Assembly: GCF_900198835.1 (NCBI RefSeq)
Contig: NZ_LT900021.1
Span: 1,364,001-1,428,000 of the forward strand
Source of the DNA: Thermococcus henrietii
Lineage (GTDB): Archaea > Methanobacteriota_B > Thermococci > Thermococcales > Thermococcaceae
Length of the DNA: 64,000 nt
Reading direction: 5' to 3'
Positions 21,504 to 38,892 of this stretch are shown one piece after another. How positions within the stretch are numbered: position 1 is the stretch's first letter; each line of letters starts with the position of its first letter. The translations under genes and the position numbers were made by a program. The notes under the pieces were generated by a model that was given only the letters and a program-made list of their open reading frames with translations, ran no database searches and was not told the DNA's origin.

Positions 21504-21958
21504 CGGAGGATGTTAGTGGGGAGGTTTTTAAAAATGCCTGTCGCTGAGGGTTTAAAGTTTTTCAAAAAGGAACTCCTCCACAACTGTTGAATTTCAAAAG
21601 AGCACCTTATCTTCCGCCAGCGCTGAAGCTTTTGGAAAAAGCTTCACCAAGGAAACTTTGCCTTCGCAAAGCTTCATCAAAGTTTGTGATTCCTTCATCA
21701 AGGGCTTCTTTTTGGATGTTTGCACTTTTAATAGACTCGTGTAAAATGCGAATTCCTATCTTTTGTGAAGCTTTCTCGCTTGGGTTTGCTTTTTTTCTCG
21801 CGCTCCGAAGGAGCGTCTCTTAGAGAAACCCCTCCCTAATGGCTCCTTTGAAAAGAATTCTCTGAGAGTACTGCCACTTAAGAGTACAAACTCCTTAAAA
21901 TTTCATTCTTAGAGAAGAATCACAAACCTTGGTCAAACTTCGCCTGCGCGAAGTTTGA

Positions 21959-21959
<1 letters not shown>
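21504..21959. repeat. Hairpin-rich non-coding segment next to the left att site
   Basis: No credible gene. It is AT-rich and packed with inverted repeats: GAAGCTTTT-GGA-AAAAGCTTC (21625-21645), CTTTGC-CTTC-GCAAAG (21656-21671), CGCTCC-GAA-GGAGCG (21801-21815), TCTCT-T-AGAGA (21816-21826), and an 11-bp stem TCAAACTTCGC with loop CTGC at 21933-21958 that abuts the att core. This was the original downstream flank of tRNA-Arg before integration, so hairpins may be tRNA transcript terminators or a scar of repeated insertion. Confidence 0.6.
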
Positions 21960-23059
<1,100 letters not shown>

Positions 23060-26700: not shown

Positions 26701-27516
26701 TCAGACTTCGTTGAGATTGGCAGATACAAATTCAACAACAAAAAAATAACAGCACTCCAGATAGACGCCGAAGTCGCAAGAAACCTGATAGAAGAAGATG
26801 AGTGGGGAGGAAGAAGCATAGAAAAAGAGCCCACAGACACCGACATAGGATACGCCCTAACCGATGCCCTTGACGCCTTCTCAGAACGGGGCACGAAAAA
26901 AATAGTGAGCCCCTTCATACTCTACAACCACCTAAACGAAAAGCTAAGCCACTTCGGCCCCAAGTGGTCCACCTGGACAGAAGAAGATATGATACTCCTC
27001 CTGGAACAATTAGCAAAAGAAAAAGCCATAGAGAAAGTGCTGGGGCTTGATGGGACGCCGACCTACCTTGTCGCAGATAAGAAGAAATTCCTTGAGAAGT
27101 TCCCAGAACTCCTCAAAAAAGAGGCTGAAAACAAACTCAAACTCACAGAAACCCCCGAAACAGAAAACACGAACGAACCGATGCCCCCAGACGACCTACT
27201 CAAAAGAGTCATCACCAGCGTCCTCGGAGCCACCACAGAAACTGACGAAGAAGGCCACAAACGCCTCAAAATAGACGACGCCGTAAGAGCCTACAACACA
27301 ATTATGCCCAGAGAAGGCTACCCCACTTGGGGCCACTGGACAAGAGGAGACTTCCTCGATGTCGTTTACTACCTCAGAAAAGACGGCCTCGTCAAGAAAA
27401 CAAAACGGGGCAGTATGACTTACTACTACATCATCGGGGACGAGGAGAAGACGGTCGAACGCTTCGTCGAAGCCCTAAAGATGATTTACCAAGAACGCTG
27501 GGGAGACGATTGGTAA
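23788..27516 (+). CDS. Primase-helicase replication protein of the element
   Basis: 1242 aa. N-terminal archaeo-eukaryotic primase-like domain: DxD at D138/D140 (LLLDIDKEG), SGRGVHIR with H180, and RVFRTVGSYNHK at 227-238. A central P-loop ATPase has Walker A GPPSVGKTSS (K654) and acidic Walker B VDDIS (D697, D698), followed by a helicase-type IFLSNYK sensor; this suits a superfamily-3-like replicative helicase. The C-terminus (~1180-1220) looks like a winged helix. Similar prim-pol/helicase fusions drive replication in archaeal plasmids and viruses. Coupled to the regulator upstream; iterons follow directly downstream. Coding strand strongly A-rich. Confidence 0.85.
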   Translation: MSEAPTTTQTTNQSPVRTEKKPLKKTALTVQVEKILDYLNQFYFEWQGYPKDNPDYLVRICKNKKDRWEEKHFSLPQVARRDEELKNFITDAIWNKKSLYNSIRAYSRGASLKKCGGKACFKAFKAIQKGSSRVLLLDIDKEGHEPFTIEEFEKEFRELLKEMKDAGIKFVYYNSGRGVHIRILLDEPLSENEYGKVIETLAQYHREILKEGRPTLTIDTQVGDLARVFRTVGSYNHKNPVALVGSDMRGIEGVTEKKKLLQFVKEKEGLLQRVNEAEKTPDEKFDIYSNDFENIAKKIAEIWKPYYREGTRQNLALLLAGILKKYTVLDEDKVEKLFREIIENLKDDEEAVRLGGLQNTLKKDNPATITLFFLKGDKGEIIDRSGRLEQFCSVNNLSKEQGAKTLEELIEKTRGALKEKGLAVKARGLIGRKQFQRKITRKGVVISSLEVYKDKVKLSTARYNEEEGRWEVIGEDAVFDGSFRLRKIEVIRSADKKAPTKYFTIDFVSKNGEKETLERVTLPEMANIFASTEYAVMKSTSELKKIFQGIISILKDKNNIQEESLFEGFEFEIIHEDDYQLVTQKSGEILNNLVKIDETAGEVKNMTKLLTAMNCIKDDKLLFLLAGTSFSAPLNEFIEYKPIIWIYGPPSVGKTSSARIFTEKAWGVEAPDAVNITGSNFRLDYYLKVGSVPLLVDDISEISYGKLVDSLKSYATRNTSNIRGKADLTIEQYKRTASLIFLSNYKLKLKRKDEAFLDRVFQYEVQEQVFDENCPRGLVSSLPRGIFPKSDFFGLIFYKHPKDLFYEKAGEIEEKVGSIIPSVTGRRAEFWAKLLVGLIGFRNFLQIALEGFQNLDPKENKELDLPELKKATANFEKRLDSIIEKAPELIKEIESTQDDDTVLAIYAKDILRAIVKDSDLRISRTKRGKEYFYVTRVELEEGRKRDRQKIRSLFERIDSLNQLKKALEALDSDFVEIGRYKFNNKKITALQIDAEVARNLIEEDEWGGRSIEKEPTDTDIGYALTDALDAFSERGTKKIVSPFILYNHLNEKLSHFGPKWSTWTEEDMILLLEQLAKEKAIEKVLGLDGTPTYLVADKKKFLEKFPELLKKEAENKLKLTETPETENTNEPMPPDDLLKRVITSVLGATTETDEEGHKRLKIDDAVRAYNTIMPREGYPTWGHWTRGDFLDVVYYLRKDGLVKKTKRGSMTYYYIIGDEEKTVERFVEALKMIYQERWGDDW

Positions 27517-28130
27517 GCTTTTTTTCTTCTCCCTCCTTCTCCATAAGCGGGACAAAAATATGAGATACACTGTGCCTTTCATATTTTCTGGGGACACTGG
27601 GACAGTATGGGGACACTGCCAATATTTCTTTAACTGTCCCATCCAAACGATAGCCTGGTGAACTCCCACTCAAAAATTCTTCAAGGGGGGCACTGGGACA
27701 GTGGTTTTTCGAGCATCGCATATTGTGGTAGGATTTGCGCAAAGGGGACACTGGGGCAGTGGGGGACACTTGTCGAAAAATTTTTAGTGTCCCCCGAATT
27801 TTGAGGCTGTGTGCTCTCTCGCTTAAGAATTCTTCAAAGGGGACAGTGGACAGTTGATTTTGGGTATCCAAAAATATAATTTGCACCCCTCTGTGAAAAA
27901 AATTAATCCCAAAAACTGCAAGTTCACTGTCCCCCCACCCCTTTGAATTTGAAGGCTATATTGCATACAGACCCAGAATCTGAGGGGGGACACTGGGGAC
28001 AGTAGACTTTACGATTGTAAACTATATTTGAATTTTGAGGCTGTATGCCCTCCAGCCTAAGAATTCTTCAGGGGGGACAGTGGGGACAGTAGAAGGGGTA
28101 AACAGGGGTGTCCCCTTTTTTATCACCCCT
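27517..28130. repeat. Iteron region, putative replication origin
   Basis: A 0.6-kb gene-free block with repeated GGGGACA(C/G)TGGGGACAGT-like units at 27590-27606, 27609-27620, 27685-27702, 27744-27771, 27839-27854, 27984-28003 and 28071-28090, and inverted ones at 27633-27640, 27786-27795 and 27925-27932. Several follow AAGAATTCTTCA (27824 and 28059 regions), and two units share a longer TTTTGAGGCTGTRTGC leader, so the basic unit is ~80-100 bp and degenerate. It lies directly after the primase-helicase gene and at the strand-composition switch point. Confidence 0.7.
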
Positions 28131-28131
28131 C

Positions 28132-28175
28132 ACGCGGGGAAGCTTAAGGCTTTTTGTCCCTTATATTAGTGGTGA
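28132..28175 (+). promoter_or_regulatory. Element-type promoter of the 28182 gene
   Basis: GCGGGGAAGCTTAAGG (28134-28149) as BRE/TATA, then TTATATTAGTGGTGAAAG with GGTGA (28171-28175) 6 nt before GTG 28182. Same architecture as the promoters at 34476 and 36570. Confidence 0.6.
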
Positions 28176-28181
28176 AAGCCT

Positions 28182-28772
28182 GTGGAAGTGGGCGATATTC
28201 TAAAAATTATAGCGGCCATCGCCATCATCGGCCTGATACTGCAATACGGTTACAAGACGATGAACAAGGGCAACAGTCAGACCAACACGGTCGTCAGCAC
28301 GGCCCAGAACACGATTAACAGTCTGGCCAGTAAGGCTGAGGTTCAGGCGAAGCTCACTGACCCGAAGATTTCAATAAGCTATGTTGTTTACAAGGATTCG
28401 ACTAACCCTGGCCAGTTCGACTTTGAGAGCGGGACTGGTGACCAGATTCTTGTTTCAGGGTCTGGTTGGGATGGCCTTCAGACGGCTTCACAGAACTATA
28501 ACTTGGTATTTTTCACAAAGGCTTCATCACTGCCAACGAGCGGTAAGTCCTTGAAGAGTGTCGTTTCAGGAAACTTTATTTCGTTCTCAGGGTCATCGTT
28601 CTACCAGCAGTTAAAGGCCGACTATACCTCAGCGGGTTCGTTTCCGATGACTGAATACTTTATCCTTGTAGACCCCCAGGAGAATTCAATAATTTCCTCA
28701 AGCGCTTCTTCAACTTCGGGCGGATATTATGCCATCATTACCGTTAGTATTCAGCAGGGATGGCTCGGGTGA
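28182..28772 (+). CDS. Membrane-anchored element protein, paralog A (196 aa)
   Basis: GTG start placed by GGTGA. One N-terminal membrane helix (ILKIIAAIAIIGLILQYGY, residues ~6-24) and an exterior domain rich in Ser/Thr/Gly. Shares ISYVVYKDSTNPGQF, the GSGWD block, FILVDP and the C-terminal GGYYAIITVSIQQGWLG with the proteins at 28900 and 30270, although the region in between has diverged. Pilin-like topology (short N-terminus, hydrophobic helix, beta-rich exterior) but no prepilin-peptidase site I can assign. Structural or surface role is inference. A T-rich tract follows the stop. Confidence 0.75.
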   Translation: MEVGDILKIIAAIAIIGLILQYGYKTMNKGNSQTNTVVSTAQNTINSLASKAEVQAKLTDPKISISYVVYKDSTNPGQFDFESGTGDQILVSGSGWDGLQTASQNYNLVFFTKASSLPTSGKSLKSVVSGNFISFSGSSFYQQLKADYTSAGSFPMTEYFILVDPQENSIISSSASSTSGGYYAIITVSIQQGWLG

Positions 28773-28799: not shown

Positions 28800-28899
28800 G
28801 CGTGAACTTTAAAAAAGGGGAGTTCTAAGTGTATCTGTCTTAATTACGGGCCTACAATCTCCGCCCACAAACAGTTCACGAAGAGTGGTGGTGTCCACT

Positions 28900-29451
28900 A
28901 TGAGACGAAAGGCTGGCCTCAAAGGAGCTTTCAAGAAGTTCTTGGAAGTTTTGGGAGTCATATTCCTGCTTTTGTTTGCTATTGGTGCCTACACCGTGTA
29001 TGAAGAGAACAAAAACCCCTCAGGAAAGGTTTACACTCAGAAGGAAGTGCTCCAGGGCTGGGTGAACGCACGGGTCAAGTATGCACTTAATCACGATATA
29101 GAGATTGATTTCACTATATATCGGGACACTTCTAACCCGGGTCACTACAACCCCAAACTCGACCGTGCAATCGCAAGAGGTGCAGGGTGGGCCTTTTTGA
29201 ACGTAACCGTCGAAAGGTATAAACTATTCAAATTTGCTTATGTCCCGAAATTGACTAACGGAACGGACATATCCTCGCTCCAGTTTGAAAATTTCACGGC
29301 CAAGAATTTGTATGATGAACTGCACAAACTGGCCAATTCCAAAGGTCTGCCCCTAAACGCTGTATTTGTTCTCGAACCAAACGATGGCACGGGAGCAAAC
29401 GGGTATTATGGTATCGTCAATATAACCTTGTCAAGGAATTGGATTGGTTGA
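28900..29451 (+). CDS. Membrane-anchored element protein, paralog B (183 aa)
   Basis: ATG 28900 after GGTGGTGTCC; an upstream GTG is less likely. MRRKAGLKGAFKKFLEVLGV is a basic cytoplasmic head, followed by one membrane helix (VIFLLLFAIGAYTVYEE) and an exterior domain with FTIYRDTSNPGHYNP, FAYVPKL, FTAKNLYDEL and a C-terminal GYYGIVNITLSRNWIG. Very close to paralog C at 30270 and distantly related to paralog A. An oligo-T tract follows at 29453. Probably a surface or particle component; function unknown. Confidence 0.78.
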   Translation: MRRKAGLKGAFKKFLEVLGVIFLLLFAIGAYTVYEENKNPSGKVYTQKEVLQGWVNARVKYALNHDIEIDFTIYRDTSNPGHYNPKLDRAIARGAGWAFLNVTVERYKLFKFAYVPKLTNGTDISSLQFENFTAKNLYDELHKLANSKGLPLNAVFVLEPNDGTGANGYYGIVNITLSRNWIG

Positions 29452-30166: not shown

Positions 30167-30269
30167 TTATGAAGCCCACAGGTTGCTTCAATTCTTCCGA
30201 GGTCCTTCACTTCAGGGGTTGCACACGAGGCGTTAAAACTTTCTCACAGTTGTTTGGGTGGTGGTGTCT

Positions 30270-30815
30270 TTGAAGCGTAGGGCAGGTTTCAAGGGTGCCA
30301 TCAAAAAGCTGTTGGAGGTCCTGGGTGTCATCTTCATCCTCATAGTGGCCCTCGGAGCGTATGCCGTTTATGAGGAAAGCAAGACGCCTTCTGGGAAGGT
30401 GTATACTCAGAAGGAAGTGTTCCAGAACTGGGCGAACGCCCGGGTCAAGTTTGCACTTGAGAACGAGATAGTGCTGAACTATACTGTTTACAAGGATACG
30501 GCTGAGCCCGGTCGGTTCAACCCTCAGCTTGACCGTGCTGTGTCCGTTGGGCAGGGTTGGGAGTTCCTCAACGACACCGCTCATCGTTTCGGCCTTCTCC
30601 AGTTTGGTTATGTGCCGAACCTTGCTCCTGGGTCGAAATACAAGCCGTCCGCTTTGAAGAAGTTCACTGCTAAGAACTTTTATGATGAGCTTGTGAGTTT
30701 GGTGAAGGTGCAGGGCCTCCCGTTGAACGCTACTTTCGTCCTTGAGCCTTTCGGGGGAGAGGGTGGCTATTATGCTGTTGTTTCGGTTCACTTGGAGCGT
30801 GGGTGGGGCGGTTGA
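30270..30815 (+). CDS. Membrane-anchored element protein, paralog C (181 aa)
   Basis: TTG 30270 aligns with the ATG of paralog B and follows the same GGTGGTGTC. LKRRAGFKGAIKKLLEVLGV, one membrane helix (IFILIVALGAYAVYEE), then PSGKVYTQKEVFQNWANARVKFAL, nearly the same as in paralog B. The C-terminus is GGYYAVVSVHLERGWGG. The repeated duplication suggests subunits of one assembly. Coding strand is G/T-rich, unlike the left arm. Confidence 0.78.
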   Translation: MKRRAGFKGAIKKLLEVLGVIFILIVALGAYAVYEESKTPSGKVYTQKEVFQNWANARVKFALENEIVLNYTVYKDTAEPGRFNPQLDRAVSVGQGWEFLNDTAHRFGLLQFGYVPNLAPGSKYKPSALKKFTAKNFYDELVSLVKVQGLPLNATFVLEPFGGEGGYYAVVSVHLERGWGG

Positions 30816-30875
30816 GCCTCCCCGCTTTTCTGTTTTCTAAGTGGCTTTTTCAAAAAAGCAGAGAAAAAGAATTCT

Positions 30876-31361
30876 TCAGGACTTTGCGGGGCTTAGTTGG
30901 ACTTTCCAGCCCAATATCCCAACATCGGGAGTGGGAGAAACGGTTATCCCGTGCCCAGGAGCTTCGTTCACGAATTCTCTTGCCCTTCTCTGTAGGGCCT
31001 CGCCCATTTCCGTGTGCCCGAGGGCTTTGAGCACTTCGATGACTTTAACTTCGCCTCTCTCTGTGATGAGCGCTCTCACTTTCTCCCAGAGGTCGTCGTT
31101 AGCCGAGTTGATGCTCAACTCCAGTTTTTCGAGTTTCTCCTTCAGTTCGGCGAGCTCCTTCTTGAGCTCCTTATTTTCCGCCTTCAGCGCCATATTCTCA
31201 GAAAGGAGTTCTGCCTTTTCTCTTTTTTCAAGGAACAATTGTGAGAGAAAATCGCCCAGCCCTATGGAGGGGGGTTTTGCCTTCATCATCTCATCGTAGA
31301 TGTCCGACTCAAGAACGAGGCTTATCAGTCTGGGCCTGTCATACTTCCTCGGTCTTCCCAC
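30876..31361 (-). CDS. Coiled-coil DNA-binding protein of the element (161 aa)
   Basis: GTG 31361 (VGRPRKYDRP) after GGTGAAAGT; TATA ATTTATATA-like element on the minus strand near 31379-31388. The AT-hook-like GRPRK, then LISLVLESDIYDEMMKAKPPSIGLGDFLSQLF, which looks like a ribbon-helix-helix-type unit, then a long coiled coil (residues ~55-95, ENMALKAENKELKKELAELK) and a C-terminal helical region. Likely a transcription or partition-type DNA-binding protein. The only gene opposite to its neighbours in this arm apart from 33707. Confidence 0.65.
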   Translation of the reverse strand: MGRPRKYDRPRLISLVLESDIYDEMMKAKPPSIGLGDFLSQLFLEKREKAELLSENMALKAENKELKKELAELKEKLEKLELSINSANDDLWEKVRALITERGEVKVIEVLKALGHTEMGEALQRRAREFVNEAPGHGITVSPTPDVGILGWKVQLSPAKS

Positions 31362-34446: not shown

Positions 34447-34492
34447 GGCACTTTAACCCTCCCCGCGTGTCTGGTGAGGCTTAAGCAATTTT
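34447..34492. promoter_or_regulatory. Divergent element-type promoters
   Basis: Minus: GCGGGGAGGGTTAAAGTG at 34449-34466 for the 237-aa gene. Plus: GAGGCTTAAGCAATTTT at 34476-34492 for the Cas4-like gene, whose GTG 34518 follows GGTAAGAGCT. The two face away from each other with overlapping regulatory space. Confidence 0.55.
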
Positions 34493-34517
34493 GTTACTAT
34501 TTTATTTGGTAAGAGCT

Positions 34518-35423
34518 GTGGAAGCCCCCCAGTCCCCCAATAGTGTGGTTTCGGATTTTGTGGAGCAGGCCTTGAATATCATCCTTCACCGTTCCTCGGA
34601 TTTCTCCTCGCTTTCCCAATCAGAGCTTGATGAACTGGCCGATAGGGTTGAGAAGAGGGCCCGCAAGAGCACGCACAAAGTTCGGGATGGCTACCTTCCG
34701 ATAAGCCTCGTCGGCAGGTGCGAGGTTATGGCTTACTCCAAGGTGAAAGCGGCCCTTTCAAAGGCCACCCGCTCAGGGAACGGTGAGAGCACAAGATACC
34801 TCTGGGGAAGGGCCGAGGGATTGAACACAAAGAGCAGGTTCAGGGGCTCGCTCCTTGAAGAGTTCGTTGGTGAGGCCCTTGAGGATTTTGCAGAATTTTA
34901 CAGCGAGAAGACTGGCACGAAAGTTGTGTTTCAACACAACAGGCTTCTCGTGGGCACGATACCTGGGTTCAAGGAAGCCCGCTTCAAGGGGTTCGTGAGC
35001 GAGGTTGATTTCTCCTTTGAGTTCTACTCCGAGGAGGGCCTGACTTTTGAGCTTGGTATTGAGTTGAAGAGGAAGAACAAGTCGCCCGAGTTCGACCAGT
35101 TGAGCAAACTCTGGTATCACGACTTTTTCTCGATGAAGTTCTTCGCCCTGAAGTTCGACCGCCTGTGGATGGTGAACGCTCACCCGAGGAATTCGTTCCA
35201 GATGGAGTTTTATCTAAGTGGACCTGAGCGGACGGCCTTCGCTTATGAGCTCGCTGAGATTTTGAAGCGGTGGAACGCTGATGAGCCCTCACTACGCCCA
35301 AACTCGTGGTATTGCAGGTATTGCGATTTTGGCCGTTCGGGAAAGTGCCCTCTGCTGATGAGCAGGCCGTCGTCGGAGTTTTCAGGCGTCAAGTGGCTCG
35401 ATGCCAAAATTGTTTTCAACTGA
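34518..35423 (+). CDS. Cas4/RecB-like Fe-S PD-(D/E)XK nuclease
   Basis: 301 aa from GTG 34518 (MEAPQSPNSVV); an earlier TTG lies inside the promoter. Nuclease core: RGSLLEEFVGEALEDFAEF, then GFVSEVDFSFE with the catalytic Asp, and LTFELGIELKRKNKS with the ExK motif. C-terminal WYCRYCDFGRSGKCP plus an N-terminal cysteine (LVGRCEVMAY) give the four-cysteine Fe-S arrangement of Cas4 and AddB-type enzymes. Expected to trim DNA 5' or 3' ends. No other CRISPR gene is near, so a role in element replication, recombination or anti-defence is more likely than adaptation. Confidence 0.75.
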   Translation: MEAPQSPNSVVSDFVEQALNIILHRSSDFSSLSQSELDELADRVEKRARKSTHKVRDGYLPISLVGRCEVMAYSKVKAALSKATRSGNGESTRYLWGRAEGLNTKSRFRGSLLEEFVGEALEDFAEFYSEKTGTKVVFQHNRLLVGTIPGFKEARFKGFVSEVDFSFEFYSEEGLTFELGIELKRKNKSPEFDQLSKLWYHDFFSMKFFALKFDRLWMVNAHPRNSFQMEFYLSGPERTAFAYELAEILKRWNADEPSLRPNSWYCRYCDFGRSGKCPLLMSRPSSEFSGVKWLDAKIVFN

Positions 35424-36547: not shown

Positions 36548-36611
36548 TCCTTTAAGCCTCACCACTCACGCGGGGAGGCTTAAGCAATTTCATCCCCTAT
36601 ATTAGTGGTGA
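36548..36611. promoter_or_regulatory. Divergent element-type promoters
   Basis: Minus: GAGGCTTAAAGGA (36548-36560) for the 59-aa protein. Plus: GCGGGGAGGCTTAAGCAATT (36570-36589), then CTATATTAGTGGTGAAAG with GGTGA (36607-36611) before GTG 36617. Nearly the same as the promoters at 28134 and 34476. Confidence 0.6.
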
Positions 36612-36616
36612 AAGTT

Positions 36617-38517: not shown

Positions 38518-38892
<375 letters not shown>

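Follow-up and report, generated by a model that had tools for sequence, protein, structure and literature searches.

The replication gene of pRN1 is preceded by a small gene (orf56), encodes AEP, SF3 and C-terminal winged-helix domains (orf904) and is followed by a non-coding region (PMC4234260). The region directly downstream of this AEP-SF3-wH gene is essential for replication (PMC4234260); the origin itself is a stem-loop of 100 nt that lacks iterons. In the phage/plasmid P4 a single protein, alpha, serves as primase and helicase and binds the origin repeats by a winged helix (PMC4234260). For Thermococcales plasmids of the pTN2, pEXT9a and pT26-2 families, intergenic origins were predicted from skew and repeats (PMC3543421, PMC6972569). 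In the pTN2-like plasmids the predicted origin lies before the replication operon, and the pT26-2 study finds no consensus common to the predicted origins (both PMC6972569, PMC3543421). According to a 2026 preprint, viral MCMs would use an N-terminal winged helix to find their origins; the main text names no site (PMC12934983). The searchable texts on Thermococcales plasmids, supplements and subscription papers aside, describe neither phased element-specific heptamers nor a link to winged helices, and the searchable literature holds no mapped origin that is read by the primase-helicase or the MCM of Thermococcaceae elements.

The DNA considered here (the window) is a 64-kb part of the 2.16 Mb chromosome of Thermococcus henrietii; 94 Thermococcaceae genomes served as the comparison set. 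It contains an integrated element of 16,856 bp bounded by 45-bp direct repeats, attL (21960-22004) at the left end and the identical attR (38816-38860) at the right end, inside a tRNA-Arg(TCT) gene (38816-38892). It is best read as a plasmid or provirus, 16.9 kb in size, that has integrated into a Thermococcaceae chromosome. A tyrosine integrase of the archaeal phage type is encoded at the left end (21959-23059, plus strand; PF16795, E = 2e-31). Integrase type and tRNA att site, the two features compared, fit the pT26-2 plasmid family, which has seven core genes. At 21957-22004 the att repeat spans the 5' end of the integrase frame, which starts with ATG on the chromosome side versus TTG in the circular form; the integrase seems to be left intact after integration.

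Downstream on the plus strand follow P0002 (23220-23795, 191 aa, family unassigned, with no Pfam or NCBIfam match) and, overlapped at its start by P0002, the primase-helicase P0001 (23788-27516, 1242 aa), which we propose as the initiator. Two paralogous membrane-anchored proteins of the element (28885-29451 and 30258-30815) are without family matches. Neither IMG/VR nor the 94 Thermococcaceae genomes contain a clear relative of a 668-aa protein, and an Rfam scan matched the tRNA alone. A 310-aa protein (34491-35423) carries a C-terminal cysteine pattern which by eye resembles a Cas4-like nuclease. Two promoter-like leaders (28123-28178 and 36559-36614) are 86% identical and each precedes an element gene.

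About 70 bp past the P0001 stop an array of heptamer-like units begins. Between 27585 and 28115 we count 18 units, 14 direct and 4 inverted, mostly arranged as six tandem pairs of GGGGACA(C/G)T with a spacing of 7-9 bp. Group A (27590-27641) consists of the pair 27590/27598, a single direct unit at 27609 and an inverted one at 27633; group B (27686-27702) is the pair 27686/27694. Group C (27744-27794) repeats the layout of group A with the pair 27744/27752, the second single direct unit at 27762 and an inverted unit at 27786, followed by group D (27839-27854, pair 27839/27846). A separate inverted unit is located at 27926-27934 (minus strand). Group E (27986-28003) is the pair 27986/27995 and group F (28073-28115) the pair 28073/28082 together with an inverted unit at 28107. 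All six groups are given on the plus strand. The 18-bp double unit is exact in groups E (GGGGACACTGGGGACAGT) and F (GGGGACAGTGGGGACAGT) only. Between group D and the inverted unit lies a stretch of 72% AT (27857-27915), within the lowest 0.2% of the element's 50-mers for GC and thereby a candidate unwinding element.

The word AAGAATTCTTCA stands without mismatch before two pairs (27825, 28059) and with a single change before another (27672); a further copy at 30867 is remote from any array. It also takes part in a 54-bp composite repeat (27796-27849, plus strand) with copies at 27643, 27796 and 28030, which ends in AAGAATTCTTCA plus a heptamer. The first-pass annotation had reported at least seven GGGGACA(C/G)-like units plus inverted copies directly after the primase-helicase, in a gene-free block at 27585-28095. 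Count and position agree with ours, whereas the array runs on to near 28115. The word said to precede several units is exact in the two cases above, and the block is free of genes apart from a 151-aa ORF on the minus strand (27431-27886); this ORF runs into the primase gene and is likely to be spurious.

On both strands GGGGACA occurs 12 times within 27517-28130, while the commonest 7-mer in 1000 dinucleotide-preserving shuffles reaches 2.7 copies on average and 5 at maximum. All 11 exact GGGGACA[CG]T of the window fall at 27590-28090, and outside the block any 614-bp stretch of the window holds at most six copies of any 7-mer. An Orc1/Cdc6-dependent archaeal origin was considered as well and rejected: no ORB boxes are found in the block at up to 3 mismatches to the consensus TTCCAGTGGAAAC or TTCCACTGGAAAC.

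The strand composition of the element switches at the array, as had been claimed before. The cumulative AT skew is highest at 27509, and the keto skew is lowest at 27684. In plus-strand genes, the fourfold-degenerate sites on the left have a GC/AT skew of -0.32/+0.40 and those on the right one of +0.07/-0.50; the change point falls at 28235, one of the earliest sites past the block (likelihood gain 93 nats). Omitting a doubtful ORF (30841-31299) from this count leads to the same outcome. Taken by itself, the GC part of the skew does not reach significance in block shuffles. In the right arm, the two genes on the minus strand show positive plus-strand GC skew as well, and hence the GC signal is independent of gene direction; the AT skew of these two genes is mixed. 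The switch fits a leading/lagging asymmetry emanating from an origin at the block, and it could also reflect two modules of different ancestry.

P0001 displays AEP-type motifs (D138/D140, GRGxH at 176-180 and a third motif A-R-hh-R). These and the Walker A/B motifs are kept in two homologues of 28-29% identity. Library matches are weak: a PHROG of DNA polymerase/primases is hit at 0.011 and the G018 homologue matches DUF5906 at 3e-4, while Pfam, NCBIfam and PDB sequence searches of P0001 give no confident match. The N-terminal model is poor (pLDDT 48), with weak AEP-fold Foldseek matches only. At the C-terminus, AF2 topology predicts two winged-helix domains, the first encoded at 26836-27147 (aa about 1017-1120) and the second at 27190-27501 (aa about 1135-1238), both on the plus strand; the underlying model, from three sequences, has a moderate pLDDT of 70. 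Both align with 29% identity in BLASTP (E = 1e-8, single comparison). The predicted C-terminus is thus seemingly a tandem duplication of one winged-helix domain. The G018 and G070 proteins are without the last winged helix. Relatives of P0001 were obtained from whole-genome searches alone; phages, plasmids, IMG/VR and GTDB contigs yielded none.

Both homologues found, G018 and G070, also carry an array directly past the stop codon. It is built from 15 copies of TCTTACA in G018 and 14 copies of GGTTACA in G070, with 8-9 bp phasing, direct and inverted runs and AT-rich centres. The heptamer thus differs from element to element while position and spacing are kept, which suggests an element-encoded reader. 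The skew of these two replicons is confounded with gene direction and was left out of the evidence. Downstream of the more distant primase-helicases G042 and G087 the heptamer array is absent despite a gap of ~400 bp, which counts against the origin reading given below. At L065 (5800-5945) and L066 (3640-3790), two copies of a hairpin-like sequence, GCAAAAATCTTGTATTTTTGT, take the place of heptamers after more distant primase-helicases, possibly a structured origin of the pRN1 type.

We consider the block to be an iteron-type theta origin read by the element's own initiator via its winged helices, with a probability of about 0.75; binding and replication are inferred here. Direct repeats are clustered in non-coding DNA, with 12 copies of GGGGACA where shuffles reach 5 at most; they adjoin the gene of the proposed initiator, as in the two homologues, and 27857-27915 offers a candidate AT-rich unwinding element. 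The weightiest evidence comes from comparison, both with the two homologues and with the MCM elements treated below. The suggestion of a likely origin by the first-pass annotation has gained support from the arrays in two homologous replicons, the predicted winged helices and the composition change. P0001 copies would bind the tandem GGGGACA(C/G)T pairs via the two duplicated C-terminal winged helices and assemble over direct and inverted units. The SF3/AAA+-like helicase domain might then open the AT-rich stretch, the AEP-like domain would prime and forks would set off from the block in both directions. This scheme builds on a predicted domain make-up.

By analogy, the block is best read as working like the iteron origin of P4 or like lambdoid systems and as being placed like the origin of pRN1. 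P4 likewise has a single protein with primase, helicase and winged helix for an iteron origin, as proposed for P0001. However, its primase is TOPRIM-type and not AEP-like, the host of our element is archaeal and the repeat unit is different. With pRN1 the element shares the order of small gene, replication gene and non-coding region; the position and predicted architecture of P0001 fit, although sequence homology to pRN1 was not detected and no curated family (Pfam, NCBIfam) links the two. In contrast to the pRN1 stem-loop, the element has heptamer arrays and two predicted winged helices.

Iteron-like arrays serve also as partition or copy-control sites. A rather unlikely alternative is a centromere-like partition site or a copy-number/incompatibility site, bound by an element-encoded DNA-binding protein, with replication starting elsewhere in the element. 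Other small putative DNA-binding proteins are indeed encoded, e.g. P0002 and a 172-aa minus-strand protein, and the second array of MCM elements, conserved and situated near a zinc-ribbon gene, shows that arrays of another kind exist. However, no partition ATPase was recognised among the scanned element proteins, the element has no other repeat cluster of such strength, the array accompanies the primase-helicase gene in three elements that otherwise differ, and the composition switches right there.

Still less probable is an operator region of the operon starting at 28182. The block is situated just upstream of this next plus-strand gene and its promoter-like leader, but the leader recurs at 36559-36614 without an array, and about 500 bp with 18 units is more than an ordinary operator comprises. 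The arrays in G018 and G070 have the 3' end of a gene on either side and, with flanking genes converging there, are hardly operators.

A chromosomal or transposon-borne dispersed repeat with no part in replication of the element, which the first-pass annotation had named as a finding that would refute the origin, is very improbable: GGGGACA-type words occur in other genomes and single double-unit matches are scattered over viral contigs (no arrays there), but the two exact double units of the 2.16 Mb chromosome are both inside the block, looser matches in the genome are about as frequent as those of a reversed control pattern, and none of the 93 relatives has a double-unit array, so that the unit is dispersed neither in its own chromosome nor in relatives.

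Arrays of comparable design are found with a different replication protein. A second mobile element of the same genome (G000:45-56 kb, L023) carries an MCM gene with TGGGACA repeats inside the reading frame (L023 4415-7069, G000:C1 about 49.4-52.1 kb). These repeats have GGGACA in common with the window block, and cross-recognition between the two resident elements is possible. MCM genes of other genomes contain in-gene arrays too, which exceed synonymous-codon shuffles and adjoin a predicted winged helix (wHTH). The spacing in some of these elements is 8 and 10 bp and not strictly 9 bp. No in-gene array is present in loci with MCM frames of ~685 aa, presumably the cellular enzyme.

In lambdoid replicons the iterons likewise lie inside the initiator gene beside the DNA-binding domain of the O protein, and specificity is exchanged as a unit. 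The MCM elements appear to resemble this arrangement in both respects, with an MCM helicase in place of O, whereas the array of the window is located outside the gene.

Word and winged helix vary together among the MCM elements. L035 and L036 share 57-97% identity per block in the core and about 30% in the winged-helix region, and their words are TGGGACA and TGGGAAC. L036 and L039 are 93-97% identical over most of the winged helix; their predicted recognition helices differ at two places, and the words are two bases apart (GGGAAC vs GGATAC). L050, L051 and L052 have both word and winged helix in common. L050 and L053 are 90-100% identical in gene DNA outside a 330-bp cassette and 63-77% within it; the cassette comprises the predicted wHTH together with the array (GTTCAAA vs GGAACA), the units of which mostly keep their positions and orientations. 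Such co-variation at sequence level is what one would expect of an array read by the winged helix. When the winged helices of MCM and primase-helicase were compared as profiles, no similarity was detected, and we hence do not claim that the reader domains share an origin.

A broader proposal, for which we see about even odds, is that origin specificity in Thermococcaceae mobile elements resides in a swappable cassette of winged helix and heptamer array (8-10 bp spaced, often GGNNAC[A/T]), in or next to the initiator gene. It would be used by unrelated machines (primase-helicase, MCM, AEP plus SF1 helicase) and recombined while the rest of the initiator stays near-identical, with the window block as one member. 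The arrays represent concrete candidate sites for origin recognition by primase-helicase or MCM. Origin recognition by a helicase becomes directly testable with the natural pairs in which both heptamer and winged helix have changed (L050/L053, L035/L036, L036/L039); these may give a recognition code, rules of compatibility between elements and new Thermococcus vectors.

Some MCM elements show a second array near the MCM gene, partly inside a zinc-ribbon ORF, in which GGGTGAAA is interleaved with GGGGGATTC at 8/10-bp spacing (L050 3700-4200, L053 3977-4490, L040 880-1420, L051 480-710). Unlike the in-gene iterons, its word (GGGTGAA) is the same across elements; phased arrays need hence not all be origins. 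A GGAACTT/AAGTTCC array with a strong 9-bp phase is located in L067 (8298-8430), just past a gene pair for an AEP-like protein (800 aa) and a UvrD helicase. The gene pair is similar to that of pTN2-like replicons, but the array follows the genes, whereas the published origin prediction places the origin before the operon.
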